In this document: piece by piece, positions 17,412-31,285 of the stretch
Position numbering within the stretch: position 1 is the stretch's first letter
How the letters are laid out: each line of letters starts with the position of its first letter
Virus record (IMG/VR): IMGVR_UViG_3300025151_000165
Span: 1 to 32,534 of that record
Strand: one strand, 5' to 3'
Length of the DNA: 32,534 nucleotides
DNA from: a virus
The notes under the pieces: model-generated
The model's database searches: none
Told to the model about the DNA's origin: nothing
The model's input: only the letters and a program-made list of their open reading frames with translations
Program-made: the position numbers and the translations under genes

Positions 17412-17900
17412 ATGGGATTTAAATTATCAGAACGCTCAATGAGCAAACTAAGAGGTGTGCATCCTGATTTAGTTAAGGTTGTAACTACAGCTATAACTCT
17501 AACTGATGTAGATTTCGGATGCATTTGTGGTTTACGTACCGAAGCAGAACAGAAAGAACTTGTGGCTAAAGGTGCAAGCAAAACTATGAACAGCTTTCAC
17601 AGACAGCAAGTTGATGGGTTCTCTCATGCTGTTGACCTCATGGCTTATGTTGGTTCTCGCGCATCATGGGAAGAAACTCTGTATGATAATATTGCAGATG
17701 CAATGAAAAAGGCGGCTGATCAACATGGGGTTGATGTTACTTGGGGTGGTGCTTGGCAAGCAGATGAAAGTGTTCGTTGGTTAAACATGAGAGAGTGGGG
17801 AGGCACAATGGAAGAAGCATCATTAGCTTACATTGACCTCAGACGTAGACAAGGGAAGCGACCTTTCTATGATGGGCCTCACTTTGAGTTGACTAGATAA
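17412..17900 (+). CDS. Endolysin: M15-family D-Ala/L-Ala endopeptidase
   Basis: 162 aa, cleaving peptides of peptidoglycan. The VanY-like M15 signature is clear: GLRTEAEQ (39-46), SFH (His63), the GFSHAVDL block (Asp75), WGG (111-113) and DGPHFEL (His157). His63, Asp75 and His157 are the expected zinc ligands. There is no signal peptide, consistent with release through the upstream holin. It is the last late gene on the + strand; the early arc converges on it from the other side, and a short - strand reading frame may overlap its last 78 bases. Confidence 0.9.
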   Translation: MGFKLSERSMSKLRGVHPDLVKVVTTAITLTDVDFGCICGLRTEAEQKELVAKGASKTMNSFHRQQVDGFSHAVDLMAYVGSRASWEETLYDNIADAMKKAADQHGVDVTWGGAWQADESVRWLNMREWGGTMEEASLAYIDLRRRQGKRPFYDGPHFELTR

Positions 17901-18002
17901 ATTTTTTTCCCAAGGGGGCTTTGATAAAGTAATTGAGCTCTTGTCTTGCACAGACATCTTGCGTTTGTATCCTTGCCACTCTTTATCTTTTTTAGTCCAC
18001 AT
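17823..18002 (-). CDS. Possible 59 aa protein at the convergent junction
   Basis: The frame starts at ATG 18002, overlapping the end of the upstream - strand gene by 11 bases. It reads MWTKKDKEWQGYKRK, then a Ser/Lys/Pro-rich segment, and ends opposite the endolysin 3' end. The first 35 residues lie in DNA without another gene and look protein-like (charged, two Trp). The last 25 are antisense to the endolysin and may be chance extension. No strong ribosome-binding site (AGGG at 9 bases). It could be the last early gene or spurious. Confidence 0.35.
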   Translation of the reverse strand: MWTKKDKEWQGYKRKMSVQDKSSITLSKPPWEKNLSSQLKVRPIIERSLPLSTSEVNVS

Positions 18003-20980: not shown

Positions 20981-21630
20981 TTTTTATATATACTCAGCTT
21001 TTCAAATGCATACCTATCAAAGTTAATAATATCATCAAGGCGATCAGTGTTTGATCTACCTGATACGTCATCTATTTCGTCATCCCATCGCTCACCATTG
21101 AGCCATGTGGTTGGGTGTGGGATGTACTGTTTCTCTTTGTGCTCAACAGTCTCAGCAAACTTGGCTGCTGCCGAGAGGATAGTTACTGCATCTGTTTTCT
21201 TCAGTGCTCTTTCAAATGCAAGTCGAGCATGACCTTTGGCTATCTTTCTTGGATAAGTATTCCAGAAGTCATCGAAGGTAGGTGTCTCACTGACACCCCA
21301 AGTAGTATTATTATTTATATTAGTAACATTATTCTTATCTTGGTGTGTCACACTGACACCCTCCTCTTTTAAACAATTGAATTGATAGATAGTTGCAGTG
21401 CCTGTTTTACCTGCAACTTTGGTTAGATAGTTTTGTTCTACGCAATAGTTCACTGCTCTTATAACTGAGCTTCTGCTTAATCCTGATAGCTCACACAGTC
21501 TTGGTATTGTTGGGTAAGCAATACCATATAGATCCGTATGATCTGCAATGATCAACATGATTAGCTTTGCATGAGCATTTTGAACTTGCCATTGTACTAC
21601 TTCTCGTAGTAATATTTCAGCGTACAACAT
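20977..21630 (-). CDS. Replication initiator/organiser-like protein (wHTH + lambda O-like C-terminus)
   Basis: 217 aa. Residues about 20-75 form a winged helix (HAKLIMLIIADHTD, GIAYPTIPRLCELSGLSRSS with the recognition helix SRSSVIRAV). After a linker, residues about 118-180 carry the phage replisome-organiser signature FDDFWNTYPRKIAKG.A..AF..A, ending in YIPHPTTWLNGERWDDE. Such proteins bind the phage origin and bring in the host helicase. With no phage polymerase or helicase in the genome, this is the likely key to replication. ATG 21630 lacks its own close ribosome-binding site; the only strong one serves a 9-codon frame that overlaps the start. Confidence 0.82.
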   Translation of the reverse strand: MLYAEILLREVVQWQVQNAHAKLIMLIIADHTDLYGIAYPTIPRLCELSGLSRSSVIRAVNYCVEQNYLTKVAGKTGTATIYQFNCLKEEGVSVTHQDKNNVTNINNNTTWGVSETPTFDDFWNTYPRKIAKGHARLAFERALKKTDAVTILSAAAKFAETVEHKEKQYIPHPTTWLNGERWDDEIDDVSGRSNTDRLDDIINFDRYAFEKLSIYKK

Positions 21631-24575: not shown

Positions 24576-24602
24576 TCGCTACTGTCCTCAGTTGTAGTTT
24601 TG

Positions 24603-24733
24603 CCCGACACTTGAATGTCTTCGGGAATCATCTCCCCCCCTCTTCGCACTTGCAGTGCTTGAGGTGGAAAGGGACAGCTACTGCCTTTAGGCTTGTTGGT
24701 AGCTGCCCCAAAGGGTTGGTGGCCTAAGCCACC
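24603..24733 (-). ncRNA. String of strong hairpins, possible structured RNA or 3' leader
   Basis: This 150-base interval between the coiled-coil gene and the 29 aa peptide holds four hairpins: GGTGGC/GCCACC (24718-24733, containing the upstream stop codon), GGGaCAGCTAC/GTAGCTGCCC (24671-24681 with 24699-24708, with GCC/GGC inside), GCACT/AGTGC (24646-24658) and CCCGA/TCGGG (24603-24625). A run of seven C (seven G on the - strand) sits at 24634-24640. No T-run follows, so they are not simple terminators. The 76-codon frame across it has protein-unlike composition. Confidence 0.5.
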
Positions 24734-25125
24734 TTTGCCTTTAGTTGAGCTAGTCTTTCTGAAGACATAGCTGGTTTCACTCGTCTTGGGGCAGGTTCCC
24801 AAGACTGTCCTGTTACTTGTTCGTAGACACTCAGGTCAGCTTGGTGACGCTCTTCAAGCAGGTTAAGTTCAACCTCGATGTTGTCTATCAGCTTTTGGAT
24901 CGCATCTGCTTTGATTGTTTGTCCATTTTCCAGTGCTATCTCGTAGTCCGCTAACTTGTCAGCCAACATCTTCTTCTTGTAGACCAGTGAATTGTTTGAA
25001 GTGTAACATTCGTCTCTGGCAATGCCCGAAATAAATTGCTCGTTCGGTACAACATCCTGAGTAGAGTGAAAATAATCTAGAACGGCTAGTTTTCTTTCAA
25101 CGAGTGTAAGTTGCTTCTTAGTCAT
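24724..25125 (-). CDS. First early gene: coiled-coil protein of unknown function
   Basis: 133 aa from ATG 25125, chosen because AGGAG lies 8 bases upstream; an upstream in-frame ATG at 25179 would reach into the structured region. Landmarks: TKKQLTLVERKLAVLDYF, a central coiled coil (VYKKKMLADKLADYEIALEN; IDNIEVELNLLEERHQADL), the motif TGQSWEPAPRR and a basic end. As the first gene of the leftward arc it is probably expressed first, perhaps to take over a host process. Its stop codon lies in the loop of a hairpin. Confidence 0.65.
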   Translation of the reverse strand: MTKKQLTLVERKLAVLDYFHSTQDVVPNEQFISGIARDECYTSNNSLVYKKKMLADKLADYEIALENGQTIKADAIQKLIDNIEVELNLLEERHQADLSVYEQVTGQSWEPAPRRVKPAMSSERLAQLKAKVA

Positions 25126-25160
25126 GTGTATTCTCCTTGTTACATTTGCGAGGACCATCC

Positions 25161-25385
25161 TCGACACAGACCTTAACAAGACAACTGGGAAAACCTGTCC
25201 ACTGACAGGTTGTTATTCGCAACCTCTTCCCACACAAGTTGACCTAACCTCAGCAAGACTTGGCAGATTGCTACTAGCTGACCACGTTCAGCTGCAATCT
25301 GACAACGGTTATCACAAGAGCACTCTCGCCAGTGCAAGAGGGAAGTTGTTGCGAATGACTTTTCCCTGTTGTCAAGGTCTTTGAC
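25161..25385 (+). ncRNA. Large multibranched structured RNA candidate
   Basis: Pairings read directly: P1 AGACCTT (25168-25174) with AAGGTCT (25374-25380), extendable outward; P2 25180-25193 with 25360-25373, 13 of 14 pairs; P3 hairpin CCTGTC/GACAGG (25194-25209); P4 25212-25231 with 25340-25359, 18 of 20 pairs; then inside P4, P5 CAAGT/ACTTG (25235-25262), P6 CAGATTGC and AGCTGA with TCAGCT and GCAATCTG (25264-25301, 14 pairs, one 4-base bulge) and P7 GCACT/AGTGC (25320-25335). P2, P3 and P4 meet without unpaired bases on the 3' side. One U-G pair in P4 (25214 with 25357) favours the + strand transcript, but the - strand, as early leader, remains possible. Known RNA class not recognised. Confidence 0.6.
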
Positions 25386-25521
25386 GAGGATGACCGCAGC
25401 TTGGAACAGGGGGAATACGCTATGATCTAAGACGCGACTGGAGTGAGGAAGAAAGAAAACTAGGCGGTCTAGATCCTTTGTAGTATGCTCCTCAGGTAGA
25501 AAGTTGTAGCGAACGTGCAAT

Positions 25522-25559
25522 TTGTGCGTTGACAGAGCTGTTATACTTCATGCTATCAC
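25522..25559 (+). promoter_or_regulatory. Late promoter before terS
   Basis: TTGTGCGTTGA at 25522-25532 contains a perfect -35 TTGACA (25529-25534). An extended -10, TGC then TATCAC (25551-25559), lies at a long 19-base spacing. The predicted start is about 25566, inside the G-rich tract. Confidence 0.7.
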
Positions 25560-25560
25560 T

Positions 25561-25603
25561 GGGGGGAGAGAGGGAGAGGGGGGCTTTAGCGTGACTAAAG
25601 GAG
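25561..25603 (+). promoter_or_regulatory. G-rich leader and hairpin masking the terS ribosome-binding site
   Basis: Bases 25561-25583 consist only of G and A with runs of six, three and six G, able in principle to form a quadruplex. CTTTAG (25584-25589) and CTAAAG (25595-25600) then pair and cover part of the AAGGAG (25598-25603) that serves terS. Confidence 0.5.
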
Positions 25604-25609
25604 CACAAA

Positions 25610-25987
25610 ATGGCAAACATAGCAAAGCGCGATCTAACTGATAGACAGCGTCGATTGGTTGAAGCGTTTGTAGCAAATGGCGGCAACCTCACACAAGCTG
25701 CACATGAGGCAGGCTACGCTCAAGGCAATAGCGGCAGGGTTTCTGCATACAAGGCGATGAAAACTGCACATGTACGACAGTACTTGATGGAAGCAATGAG
25801 TGATGCATTTGGAATGAACGCAGCTAAAGCACTGGGTAGAGTTGTGCAGTTATCATCTGGAGCTAAGTCAGAGTATGTGCAGCTTGAAGCATCGAAGGAT
25901 CTGTTAGATCGTGCTGGGTTTAAGCCTATAGACCGCTCACAAGTGCAGGTAGCAGGGGATATCAAAGTGTCCATTGATCTATCGTGA
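25610..25987 (+). CDS. terS: Terminase small subunit
   Basis: 125 aa DNA-recognition subunit of the packaging motor. The N-terminus carries the family's helix-turn-helix: LTDRQRRLVEAFVANGGNLT, then QAAHEAGYA...GRVSAYKAM. The oligomerisation helices follow (RQYLMEAMSDAFGMNAAKAL) and the C-terminus has SGAKSEYVQLEASKDLLDRAGF, typical of phage small terminases. It is the first gene of the late arc; AAGGAG lies six bases upstream, partly inside a hairpin. A terminator-like hairpin follows the gene, so its level may be uncoupled from terL. Confidence 0.88.
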   Translation: MANIAKRDLTDRQRRLVEAFVANGGNLTQAAHEAGYAQGNSGRVSAYKAMKTAHVRQYLMEAMSDAFGMNAAKALGRVVQLSSGAKSEYVQLEASKDLLDRAGFKPIDRSQVQVAGDIKVSIDLS

Positions 25988-27133: not shown

Positions 27134-27324
27134 GTTTTAGCCATTCTATTTCTAAGCATGACCGCGCATTACTACGCACGATTGTAAAGAAAGTGCATCT
27201 TCAGCATCATCCTAAAGATTTCCAAACAGATATGGAGGCAGATAAGGTTATTGATGTTATTGCGCCTGATATGATTGAGCGCATGATTAAGTTTGCTGTG
27301 GATTACAAGGTTGACAGAATTTAA
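27130..27324 (+). CDS. Small helical protein preceding terL
   Basis: 64 aa in ATGA overlap with the upstream gene. The sequence FSHSISKHDRALLRTIVKKV, then HLQHHPKDFQTDMEADKVID and MIERMIKFAVDYKVDRI is helical, with a histidine-rich middle. It ends 14 bases inside the terL reading frame, so terL translation is probably coupled to it. I do not recognise the family; position suggests the packaging module. Confidence 0.6.
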   Translation: MSFSHSISKHDRALLRTIVKKVHLQHHPKDFQTDMEADKVIDVIAPDMIERMIKFAVDYKVDRI

Positions 27325-28840
27325 ATATAAACCCGATGGCGAAGTCCTAAAAAAATTTATGAAGGACAATACATTTTTTCGTGGCATTCGTGGTCCTGTA
27401 GGTTCTGGCAAGTCTGTCGGTTGTTGCGTAGAAGTGTTTAGACGTGCTCTTTCTCAGAAGAAAAACGACAGTGGCATACGCAGAAGCCGATGGGCTATTA
27501 TAAGAAACACAAATCCACAGCTTAGAACAACAACAATTAAGACTTGGCTTGATTGGTTTCCAGAAAACGAGTGGGGTAAATTTATTTGGTCTGTGCCTTA
27601 TACCCATCACATAAAGAAAGGAGACATGGACCTAGAGGTTATCTTCCTTGCTCTTGACCGTCCAGAAGATGTTAAAAAACTATTGTCCCTCGAATTAACA
27701 GGCATCTGGATTAACGAGGCAAGGGAGATACCAAAGAGTATTATTGACGCTTGTACGATGAGGGTTGGGCGGTTTCCTTCTATGCGTGAAGGTGGACCTA
27801 GTTGGACAGGTGTTATTGCTGATACTAACGCACCAGAAGAAGATCACTGGTGGCCTATTATGTCAGGTGAAGTTCCTATACCAGATCACATTCCTAGAGA
27901 TCAGGCCAAGATGTTAGTTAAGCCTGATAACTGGCAGTTCTTCACACAACCATCTGGTATGAAAGAAGTATATAATGAAGATGGTGAAGTAGACAATTAT
28001 AAAGACAATGATGAAGCTGAAAATAAAAAGAACATGCTTCAGAATTATTATACAAACTTAATACAGGGTAAAACTAAATCTTGGATTGATGTTTATGTAA
28101 TGAATAGATTAGGCTCTATACAAGATGGAAAGCCAGTATATCCCATGTTTGCTAGTGAAACACACATTGCTAAAGAAGAAATACCAATAGCAGCAGGGTT
28201 GCCTTTGTACATTGGTATTGATTTTGGGCTTACCCCTGCGGCTGTTATAGGTCAGAAGGTAAGAAATAGATGGCTAATCCAATCAGAGGTTGTTGCTTTT
28301 GATATGGGCATTGTTAGATTTGCAGAGGTGTTAAGGAATGAAATTGCTACTAGGTTTTCTGAAGCTTCCGATGTCTATATATACGGTGATCCAGCAGGTG
28401 ATTTTAGGGCGCAGACGGACGAATCTACCCCTTTTCACATACTTAGAGGTGCTGGTTTACGCGCATTTCCCGCCCCAAGTAATTCTGTGGATCTTCGCTT
28501 GGAGTCAGTGGCGCAGCAACTTAATAAGATGGTTGAAGGTAAACCTGCGTTTTTAATAGATAGACGCTGTTCTCAACTTATAAAGGGGTTTGAAGGCGGC
28601 TATGCTTACAAACGTATAGAAGTAAGTGGTGAGCGATATGCAGATAAACCTGATAAAAATATGTACTCTCATATACATGACGCTTTACAATATTTAATGC
28701 TTGGAGCAGGTGAGGGAAGGGCGCTTATGTCCAATCAAAAACCTGCACAAGTTGTAAATGGGCGTGCAAATTTTGATGTTTTTAGAAGAAAACCTAATAA
28801 TGCTACAAAAAAACCTAGTTTTTGGTCTCTTGTGCGTTGA
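27311..28840 (+). CDS. terL: Terminase large subunit
   Basis: 509 aa from TTG 27311, giving the family-like opening MTEFKYKPDGEVLKKFM; TTG 27293 or ATG 27359 are alternatives. ATPase: Walker A GPVGSGKS at 28-35, Walker B GIWINEARE at about 131-139, coupling Thr/Asn near 172-173. Nuclease of RNase H fold: IGIDFG with Asp304, YGDPAG with Asp360 and HDALQY with Asp457, the expected acidic triad. It translocates DNA into the portal and cuts concatemers. The stop codon TGA is part of a late promoter element (codons Leu-Val-Arg-stop spell CTTGTGCGTTGA). Confidence 0.93.
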   Translation: MTEFKYKPDGEVLKKFMKDNTFFRGIRGPVGSGKSVGCCVEVFRRALSQKKNDSGIRRSRWAIIRNTNPQLRTTTIKTWLDWFPENEWGKFIWSVPYTHHIKKGDMDLEVIFLALDRPEDVKKLLSLELTGIWINEAREIPKSIIDACTMRVGRFPSMREGGPSWTGVIADTNAPEEDHWWPIMSGEVPIPDHIPRDQAKMLVKPDNWQFFTQPSGMKEVYNEDGEVDNYKDNDEAENKKNMLQNYYTNLIQGKTKSWIDVYVMNRLGSIQDGKPVYPMFASETHIAKEEIPIAAGLPLYIGIDFGLTPAAVIGQKVRNRWLIQSEVVAFDMGIVRFAEVLRNEIATRFSEASDVYIYGDPAGDFRAQTDESTPFHILRGAGLRAFPAPSNSVDLRLESVAQQLNKMVEGKPAFLIDRRCSQLIKGFEGGYAYKRIEVSGERYADKPDKNMYSHIHDALQYLMLGAGEGRALMSNQKPAQVVNGRANFDVFRRKPNNATKKPSFWSLVR

Positions 28841-28892: not shown

Positions 28893-29741
28893 ATGGGAAA
28901 GAGACCTCACCCTATTACTGCTGATTCAGTAGAAAGAGCAGGAGCAACAAAGCTTTTTGACTATCAAGATGCAGGTTTTACATTGCAAAATGCAGGGGCA
29001 GGTCTTTTTAGAAGATCTGGAGCGCAAGCAATTCTTCCTGACGGAACTAAAACTCCTATATTTAGAAACAAAAGCAATGAAGTAGAAAAGAGGCAGCTCT
29101 TAGCATACCTTGAGGCAAATCATTCTGATTCTTTAGTTCCTACAACAACAAAAGAAGTAGATCCTGAGGGAATACTTGGAACTGGCGTTGGTTATGGCGC
29201 AGAAGATTTTGCTAAAGTTGATAAAGAAAATGCATTAAAAGTAGAAGAATTAGAAGAGGCTATTAAAAAACAGAACGAAGAAATAGAAAAACTAAAAAAA
29301 GCAGGACAAGTAAAAGTAGAAGACCCAACTGATGATGATGATGATGAATTTAAAAGCAGGTCAACATCAGAAGATCAAGATTTAGATTTACAAACTGTAA
29401 AGCCTTCTGCGCCTATAGGAGCAACAAGTGTTACTTATCAAACAATAATTAGAGAACCTTCTGCAGCTGTAAGGCAGCAAGAAAAATATGCTTCTGAACA
29501 ATTGCGTAAGTCTCGTATAGAAAAAGCAAGACAAAAAAGATCATTGTTAAGAAGAAGGCAGGAGGCTTTGCAAGAAGTAGGTATTGGCAGAAAAGTTCTT
29601 AGTGGTGAAGAGCAAGATTTAGACTTGCCACAAGTTGATTCGAGAATATCCCAAGCAACTGGAAGGCGTGGTGGAAGAAGTAGAGGCTCATTAATTACTG
29701 GGTCGCGTGGTGGAATTGGTTTTTATAGCAGGTATACATAA
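28893..29741 (+). CDS. Charged, partly disordered protein between terL and portal
   Basis: 282 aa. The N-terminal 90 residues look folded (FDYQDAGFTLQNAGAGLFRR, then SGAQAILPDGTKTP). A coiled coil follows (EELEEAIKKQNEEIEKLKKA), then an acidic stretch with five Asp in a row, a basic helix (SRIEKARQKRSLLRRRQEAL) and a Gly/Arg-rich end (GRRGGRSRGS). The short motif QDLDL occurs twice (near residues 160 and 240). It has its own promoter element. It could be a minor head or packaging protein; family not recognised. The stop overlaps the portal start (TAATG). Confidence 0.6.
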   Translation: MGKRPHPITADSVERAGATKLFDYQDAGFTLQNAGAGLFRRSGAQAILPDGTKTPIFRNKSNEVEKRQLLAYLEANHSDSLVPTTTKEVDPEGILGTGVGYGAEDFAKVDKENALKVEELEEAIKKQNEEIEKLKKAGQVKVEDPTDDDDDEFKSRSTSEDQDLDLQTVKPSAPIGATSVTYQTIIREPSAAVRQQEKYASEQLRKSRIEKARQKRSLLRRRQEALQEVGIGRKVLSGEEQDLDLPQVDSRISQATGRRGGRSRGSLITGSRGGIGFYSRYT

Positions 29742-31285
29742 TGCACGATCCTAAAAAATATCTTGAAAGATACGAAAAAGCTAAAGCGCATAGGCAAAAC
29801 TTTGTAGATTTATTTGAAGAATGTTATGAATACGCTTTGCCTCAAAGAGAATCTTTTTATTATGAAACGGCAGGGCAGCGCAGGGATGATAAGATATTTG
29901 ATCATACTGCTGTTGTAGGAACTCAAGAATTTGCTTCTAGGTTGCAATCTGGTCTTGTTCCAAACTTTGCAAGATGGGCAGATTTTACTTCTGGATCAGA
30001 AATACCAGAAGAAGAAAGAGATATAGTTGATAATGAACTTGATTCTGTAACAGAGTATGTATTTGAAATACTTCAGAATTCAAATTTTGGACAAGAAGTT
30101 CATGAATCATTTATGGATTTAGCATTAGGAACAGGCATTCTTTGTGTTGAAGAAGGTGATTCCATAAATCCAATAGTATTTTCTGCTGTTCCTTTACCAC
30201 ATGTAGTTTTGGATACTGGTGCTGATGACAAAATAGACCATGTATTTAGAGAGAGAAAGAATATTAGAAACTCTGATCTTTCCAATCTTTATGAAGAAAA
30301 AGATTTTGATCAAAAAGTTCAGCAAAGAATACAAAGAGACCCAGAAGGTAAATGTAAAGTTCTTGAGGTTGTTTGCAGGGATTATTCTCAGAAAAATGAG
30401 GAAGCCTATTTTCATTATGTAATTGATTTGTCTACAAAAACTTATTTGTTTGAAGAAACATTTAAGGGTGTTGGTGCTAATCCATATGTTTGTTTTAGAT
30501 GGGCTAAGTGTGCAGGAGAAGTATATGGTAGAGGGCCATTAGTTAATGCTTTGTCTGCAATTAAAACAGCTAATCTTGTTATTCAGCTAGTATTAGAAAA
30601 TGCACAAATGGCTATTTCTGGTATTTACCAAATGGATGATGATGGGATTATTAACCCAGATACTATTAACCTAGTCCCTGGTACTATAATACCAAAGTCA
30701 CCTCAGTCTGGTGGGTTGCAACCTATAAATGCAGCAGGTCGTTTTGATGTTGCGGATATTGTTTTGAGTGATCAAAGAAATGAAATAAAGAAAACTCTTT
30801 ATAGCGAAATGCTAGGAAATCCTGATAGAACTCCTGCTTCTGCTACGGAAGTAGCTGAACGTATGGCTGATTTATCAAGAAGAATTGGCTCTGCATTTGG
30901 AAGATTGCAAGCTGAGTTAGTACAGCCTGTACTTCAACGAGTAGTTTATATTCTTAAAAAGCAAGGACGTATAGAAATACCAACTATAAATGGTAGAGAA
31001 GTAAAAATACGTTCCGTTTCTCCTCTTGCTCAAGCTCAATCAAACCAAGACATTACTTCTGTTTCACGTTTTTTAGAAACGGTAAGTACATATTTTGGAC
31101 CCGATATGACAAACATGTTAATTAACTCTGAGCAAACTGCTGTTCATCTTGCTAAAAAATATGGTGTACCTGACACCTTGATTCGTGATGAAGAAGAGCG
31201 TAGACAGATAGTTGCGATGATGCAGCAAATGCAACAGATGCAGCAACAGCAACAAGTAACAGGACAACAAATTGCCGCAGAGTAG
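29741..31285 (+). CDS. Portal (head-tail connector) protein
   Basis: 514 aa, the 12-fold ring at the capsid vertex through which DNA passes. The N-terminus (KAHRQNFVDLFEECYEYALP then QRESFYY) and the segment TAVVGTQEFASRLQSGLVPN with WADF are typical of T7 gp8-like connectors, as is the central AGEVYGRGPLVNALSAIKTA. The C-terminus is Gln/Met-rich (MMQQMQQMQQQQQ), a barrel-tail feature also seen in the family. The length is normal (T7 gp8 is 536 aa). It lies between terminase and scaffold as expected. Confidence 0.92.
   Translation: MHDPKKYLERYEKAKAHRQNFVDLFEECYEYALPQRESFYYETAGQRRDDKIFDHTAVVGTQEFASRLQSGLVPNFARWADFTSGSEIPEEERDIVDNELDSVTEYVFEILQNSNFGQEVHESFMDLALGTGILCVEEGDSINPIVFSAVPLPHVVLDTGADDKIDHVFRERKNIRNSDLSNLYEEKDFDQKVQQRIQRDPEGKCKVLEVVCRDYSQKNEEAYFHYVIDLSTKTYLFEETFKGVGANPYVCFRWAKCAGEVYGRGPLVNALSAIKTANLVIQLVLENAQMAISGIYQMDDDGIINPDTINLVPGTIIPKSPQSGGLQPINAAGRFDVADIVLSDQRNEIKKTLYSEMLGNPDRTPASATEVAERMADLSRRIGSAFGRLQAELVQPVLQRVVYILKKQGRIEIPTINGREVKIRSVSPLAQAQSNQDITSVSRFLETVSTYFGPDMTNMLINSEQTAVHLAKKYGVPDTLIRDEEERRQIVAMMQQMQQMQQQQQVTGQQIAAE

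Follow-up and report, generated by a model that had tools for sequence, protein, structure and literature searches.

Closest described systems

IS10 RNA-OUT and CopA/CopT are cis-antisense systems whose stable hairpin RNA covers a ribosome binding site. The element described here also overlaps a ribosome binding site and a start codon on the opposite strand, but it is a predicted transcript of much larger size, has a conserved multi-helix core and closes its stem with an inverted copy of the start of its own target. The ColE1 RNA II/RNA I pair, which acts with Rom, combines a structured RNA of several hundred nucleotides with an opposite-strand overlap. Our locus shares with ColE1 this overlap, a nearby G-rich tract and a small protein predicted to be a helical hairpin; it differs in lacking any sequence relation to it, in that the phage encodes an initiator of its own, and in that the likeness of the small protein to Rom is not significant. 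The pRNA of phage phi29 is a packaging RNA with a three-way junction. The element is likewise predicted to include such a junction and lies close to packaging genes, although it differs from pRNA in size and position and has no match in Rfam, which holds curated phage families.

GOLLD and ROOL are large structured RNAs of phages and prophages, of unknown function, and GOLLD has marine members (PMC12286853). By prediction, the element is likewise a large, highly structured phage RNA, but it is shorter, it is situated between an early gene and the terminase instead of near tRNA islands, and its outer stem is antisense to the start of a gene. We found no description of it in the literature searched. 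A search of Rfam 15 at the gathering threshold yielded no family match for the window or for seven relatives, and a permissive search produced only a chance match to snoR66 (E 2.5), with none in seven more loci; the sequence-only reading had also failed to match the element to a known phage RNA. A tRNA or tmRNA was discarded, there being no ARAGORN match.

Genome context

The window, i.e., the complete 32,534-base virus record analysed here, has the gene content of a podovirus-like phage. It encodes a major head protein (4–813), the small (TerS, 25610–25987, + strand) and large (27293–28840) terminase subunits, a head-tail adaptor (29741–31285) and tail proteins, as well as a leftward early arc that includes genes for a replication initiator and a RecE/YqaJ-like exonuclease. 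The initiator gene contains a pair of almost identical 17-nt repeats, GTGTC(T/A)CACTGACACCC (21282–21298 and 21345–21361), which are a possible origin. Protein searches led to Pelagibacter phage EXVC031P Hodr, the closest named phage found (64 % identity in TerL and 48 % in TerS), and to distant phages, and blastn found no nucleotide relatives among named phages. The labels of deposited record OQ414635.1 (L160) disagree, its title being EXVC031P Hodr and its locus tags EXVC032PBaldr.

Predicted fold of the element

The sequence-only reading had proposed a ladder of nested helices at 25161–25385, with more pairing than expected by chance, and the predicted fold reproduces this ladder. On the + strand, this interval folds with −92.8 kcal/mol (z −8.35, with 0 of 200 shuffles as good), and the slightly longer interval 25141–25405 with −113.1 kcal/mol (z −10.05, ca. 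10 SD below dinucleotide shuffles), the corresponding values for the − strand being −111.0 kcal/mol and z −6.72. Chance folding is ruled out by these shuffles and by those from 129 homologous regions described below. The interval first proposed is therefore real but too short, because the structure spans approximately positions 25062–25480. Neither is the region free of genes, as had been claimed: at its left end, the outer stem covers the ribosome binding site, the start codon and the first codons of a divergent leftward gene (133 aa; 24724–25125, − strand), designated early gene 1.

The outer stem is formed, as deduced from folding and complementarity, by a 5′ arm (25062–25140), antisense to the ribosome binding site, start and first codons of early gene 1, and a 3′ arm (25406–25480), which repeats the start of that gene in inverted, degenerate form; the helices predicted between them are 25086–25098/25451–25463, 25109–25125/25422–25439 and 25126–25140/25406–25420. 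Next comes a conserved 5′ element (25146–25163, with CGAGGACCATCCTCG at 25149) that can form a local hairpin or serve as the 5′ strand of the closing helix P1 (25156–25163/25385–25392). The 3′ strand of P1, CGAGGATGACCGCAG (25385–25399), is indicated by the fold and, in other lineages, by three-segment covariation. P2 pairs 25168–25191 with 25362–25380 and shows two-sided changes, and P3 is a side hairpin, AACCTGTC-CACT-GACAGGTT, at 25192–25211, whose position is occupied in L007, L013 and L154 by a hairpin with other letters. The P4 helix (25212–25223/25348–25359) belongs to the P4/P5 strands 25212–25231, with core TTCGCAA, and 25340–25359, with core TTGCGAA, identified by folding and covariation. 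All these features are on the + strand, as is a variable apical domain (25232–25339). The arms of the sequence-only reading fared differently in close relatives: the P1–P4 core is kept, whereas the 14-pair hairpin P6, contained in a 45-nt insertion of the apical domain (25260–25304), is absent from three of them (L002, L005 and L009). In L007 and L008, the outer half of the structure is replaced on both sides and the inner half is almost identical to that of the window, as if the arms had been exchanged together.

Conservation and covariation among relatives

Relatives were gathered with terminase queries and by the presence of the exact 23-mer GGGGGGAGAGAGGGAGAGGGGGG upstream of TerS, resulting in 129 non-redundant upstream regions from 75 sequence clusters; unlike the 23-mer, folding was not a selection criterion. 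In the 400 nt preceding the late promoter, the median folding excess over dinucleotide shuffles was 33.3 kcal/mol on the + strand and 26.0 kcal/mol on the − strand, compared to 1.6 kcal/mol for control regions from the same contigs; values for single loci are rough, since six shuffles were used per strand and three for the controls. The excess was larger on the + than on the − strand in 96 of the 129 regions. The upstream region of Hodr is also strongly folded, with z values of −10.8 on the + and −12.8 on the − strand.

Across the family, the conserved 5′ element reads GCGAGGACCA(C/T)CCTCGC and its 3′ partner GCGAGGTGGCCGCAG, such that the middle segment of the 5′ element could pair with either copy of GCGAGG. 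This three-way pairing is kept with different letters in other lineages (CAAGAGGCCAACCCTCTTG...CAAGAGGTTGG and CGAAGGATCAGCCCTTCG...CGAAGGG).

Compensatory changes, to be expected among relatives from the sequence-only reading, were present in two alignments. A MAFFT alignment of 13 sequences, built from sequence only, contained 43 double-change cells, as opposed to 17.6 in shuffled controls (0 of 500), with a covariation score of 0.253 vs. 0.115 for shuffled and no more than 0.149 for slid versions; in a 15-row alignment, both of the highest-ranked covarying column pairs were P4 pairs. Covariance model R1 matched the window at 25146–25402 on the + strand (105.5 bits, E 8e-30) and identified 62 sources at E ≤ 1e-6, with a single place in each. 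In the alignment of these 62 matches there were two-sided changes in 30 of 35 pairs and 317 double-change cells, against 102.8 after shuffling (0 of 500) and at most 106 in slid versions; this alignment is structure-fitted, the 13-sequence MAFFT test being cleaner, and the shuffle controls include no phylogeny model. Including weaker matches, R1 covers 65 of the 129 regions and 37 of the 75 clusters; the remainder fold and are not matched by the model.

A scan of the viral collection with the P4 pattern identified 37 stretches, and those newly read had the G tract downstream, with few exceptions near contig ends. About nine stretches fitted the P1 hairpin pattern but lacked both P4 and the G tract, and are probably chance matches. 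A second motif, (GATA/GAC)ACTCACC-hairpin-GAGAC...GGCTC-TTCATGAGTAGC, was observed ca. 90–180 nt upstream of the G tract in eight lineages (L014, L033, L040, L042, L109, L112, L122 and L269), mostly unmatched by the core model, and is possibly another small structured RNA domain.

A selected, covarying, + strand structured element thus occupies a fixed position between early gene 1 and the late (terminase) promoter. Its identity as an RNA is strongly supported, and it defines a family found in a large group of phages that are podovirus-like and mostly marine, with a core of ca. 250 nt that extends to ca. 420 nt with the outer stem.

Strand of the element

We examined strand preference using folds in which G-U pairs were forbidden, counting the 1×1 mismatches inside helices. 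The + strand folds contained 180 G.T and 53 A.C mismatches, and folds of the reverse complement, counted in the same sense, gave 184 vs. 48. The asymmetry was maintained when counts were split by cluster (43 vs. 14 and 43 vs. 10), with a near-balanced base composition, and appeared both in the outer stem (ca. 35 to 2) and in the core (ca. 38 to 11), as well as in regions with (45:7) and without (47:23) the R1 core. In the R1 alignment, column pair 86–287 is G-U in 46 sequences and G-C in 15. Nevertheless, the core pairs of this alignment, taken alone, show a weak contrast (96 G-U vs. 74 A-C), so that the case for the + strand rests on the mismatch test; a strand test with tetraloops had few loops. 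The sequence-only reading had taken a single U-G pair as a hint for the + strand, and the mismatch counts over many lineages bear it out. A + strand product, to which the mismatch asymmetry is the only pointer, is probably transcribed.

The asymmetry is not predicted for a double-stranded DNA element, such as a cruciform or a packaging or replication site, but could also arise in single-stranded DNA. The element might then be a structure of the + DNA strand, for instance a single-strand initiation site, and not an RNA, in line with our failure to find a promoter for the latter. We regard this as very unlikely, because the gene content indicates no single-stranded DNA stage and the 17-nt repeats of the initiator gene already offer a possible origin.

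Still less credible is a role of the region in the early mRNA, as a − strand leader that folds back and hides the ribosome binding site of early gene 1. In L157 and L182 a − strand promoter, TTGTCA-18-TATACT, overlaps the late promoter, so the region would there be an early mRNA leader, and the − strand also folds well. However, its fold is weaker over the full ladder (25060–25485; −168.6 vs. −189.3 for the + strand), and the G.T mismatches that dominate on the + strand in the stem concealing the ribosome binding site are A.C on the mRNA. The leader role contemplated by the sequence-only reading is accordingly disfavoured, since wobble pairing favours the + strand and the early mRNA corresponds to the −.

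Overlap with the start of early gene 1

The left arm of the outer stem is, as follows from its position, complementary to the ribosome binding site, start and first codons of early gene 1. The sequence extending from 60 nt inside this gene through its ribosome binding site was complementary to that right of the core, beyond shuffles (≤2 of 200), in 25 of 26 lineages, and the coding sequence alone in 24 of 26. Complementarity to the early gene start occurs likewise in Hodr, and in L009 paired changes occur on both sides of the outer stem, across the ribosome binding site.

The family of early gene 1, with motif IARDACYTSxNSLxYKKKQ, is conserved beside the RNA. Its product is predicted to form a long helical hairpin (pLDDT 91), for which we found no significant fold match and no informative family; the comparison with Rom (E 0.2–0.6) is below significance and only a lead.

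Two explanations compete for the overlap. The RNA could act in cis, as an antisense to the early mRNA, or it could be a trans-acting or structural phage RNA, involved in host take-over, packaging or anti-defence or serving as a decoy. In the latter case the core would be what matters, and the overlap with the early start would have arisen as a side effect of genome compaction, as the right arm adapted to a left arm constrained by coding. The core is indeed conserved in sequence and structure beyond mere complementarity, and the element adjoins the terminase gene; yet a chance overlap does not require complementarity to the early start in 25 of 26 lineages. This trans-acting alternative, in which the overlap is incidental, competes most strongly with the antisense reading, although we consider it somewhat unlikely. 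We prefer the antisense reading because the overlap recurs in lineages that otherwise differ in sequence and because the early mRNA, as a perfect complement, should outcompete the imperfect internal stem.

Promoters, terminators and the downstream block

Before TerS there is a promoter-like block, TTGACA...TGCTATCACT (25529–25560, + strand), which is the putative late promoter. Its TTGAC is present in 74 of the 75 clusters, and TTGACA...TATnAAT, situated directly before the G tract and downstream of the RNA, was the sole enriched + strand promoter; a search for canonical promoters found no enriched signal left of the RNA. The block is immediately followed by the G-rich 23-mer GGGGGGAGAGAGGGAGAGGGGGG (25561–25583, + strand), of which at least 120 viral stretches contain an exact copy, a conservation that is inflated because the 23-mer was the search key. 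Variants of the G tract keep the two G runs and change their spacing, and candidate roles for it are an initial transcribed region, a protein site or a cos-like site. Between the outer stem and the late promoter, the window (25476–25520) and its relatives contain (T)TGTAGTATG repeats, and other lineages a GTGACGNNACGTCAC-like palindrome; both are possible operators.

The only terminator-like site within 24600–25700 is at 24718–24733, outside the element. An intrinsic terminator was rejected as an explanation of the element, with no U tract at it and no terminator found after it, and no clear terminator was found near the convergent junction at 17900–17992. The latter result, the strand preference and the missing + strand promoter beside the RNA would all fit a leader or trailer of the late transcript, which would run antisense through the early arc of a circular or concatemeric genome and carry a processing, stability, or termination/antitermination RNA just before the late promoter. 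This would require, however, ca. 7 kb of antisense transcription, and the element lacks a terminator-like U tract, making such a leader or trailer quite unlikely in our opinion.

A candidate antisense switch between early and late expression

Our preferred reading, to which we assign a probability of roughly 40 %, is a new family of + strand phage RNAs acting as a cis-antisense early/late switch with a conserved core. Once transcribed, the + strand RNA would fold into a stable rod through the core, and its 5′ arm would invade the early mRNA, to which it is perfectly complementary, so that this mRNA would either be blocked in translation or become open to cleavage as a double strand. As late expression increases, the early operon would in this way be turned down. 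The conserved core, comprising P1–P4 and the 5′ hairpin with its two alternative partners, may make the RNA more stable or serve as a protein-binding site. Transcription of the RNA might start within early gene 1, at a promoter that is weak or non-canonical, or might come from late transcription running round the genome. Both the antisense action on the early operon and the binding of a partner by the core are proposed from sequence comparisons.

The switch is favoured by the folding in 129 regions, covariation, strand asymmetry, the overlap in 25 of 26 lineages, the paired changes in L009 and the single match per locus. Against it stand the missing + promoter left of the RNA and terminator after it, a conserved core exceeding the needs of an antisense RNA, the weak contrast of the R1 core pairs (96 vs. 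74), the larger − strand z value of Hodr, and the failure of R1 to match half of the regions.

An elaboration of the antisense switch, unlikely in its full form, is that it operates by strand exchange. One DNA segment would yield both the early mRNA and a structured + strand RNA whose antisense arm opens only on encountering the early mRNA; the inverted copy of the start would be kept by rapid compensatory change, and the switching of the 5′ hairpin between local and long-range pairing would determine when early expression is shut off.

The isolate Hodr, which grows on Pelagibacter HTCC1062, has the same arrangement, making the proposal testable. It is unusual for an RNA helix to incorporate a copy of the start of a neighbouring gene, and such copying would illustrate the co-evolution of an RNA with a coding sequence.
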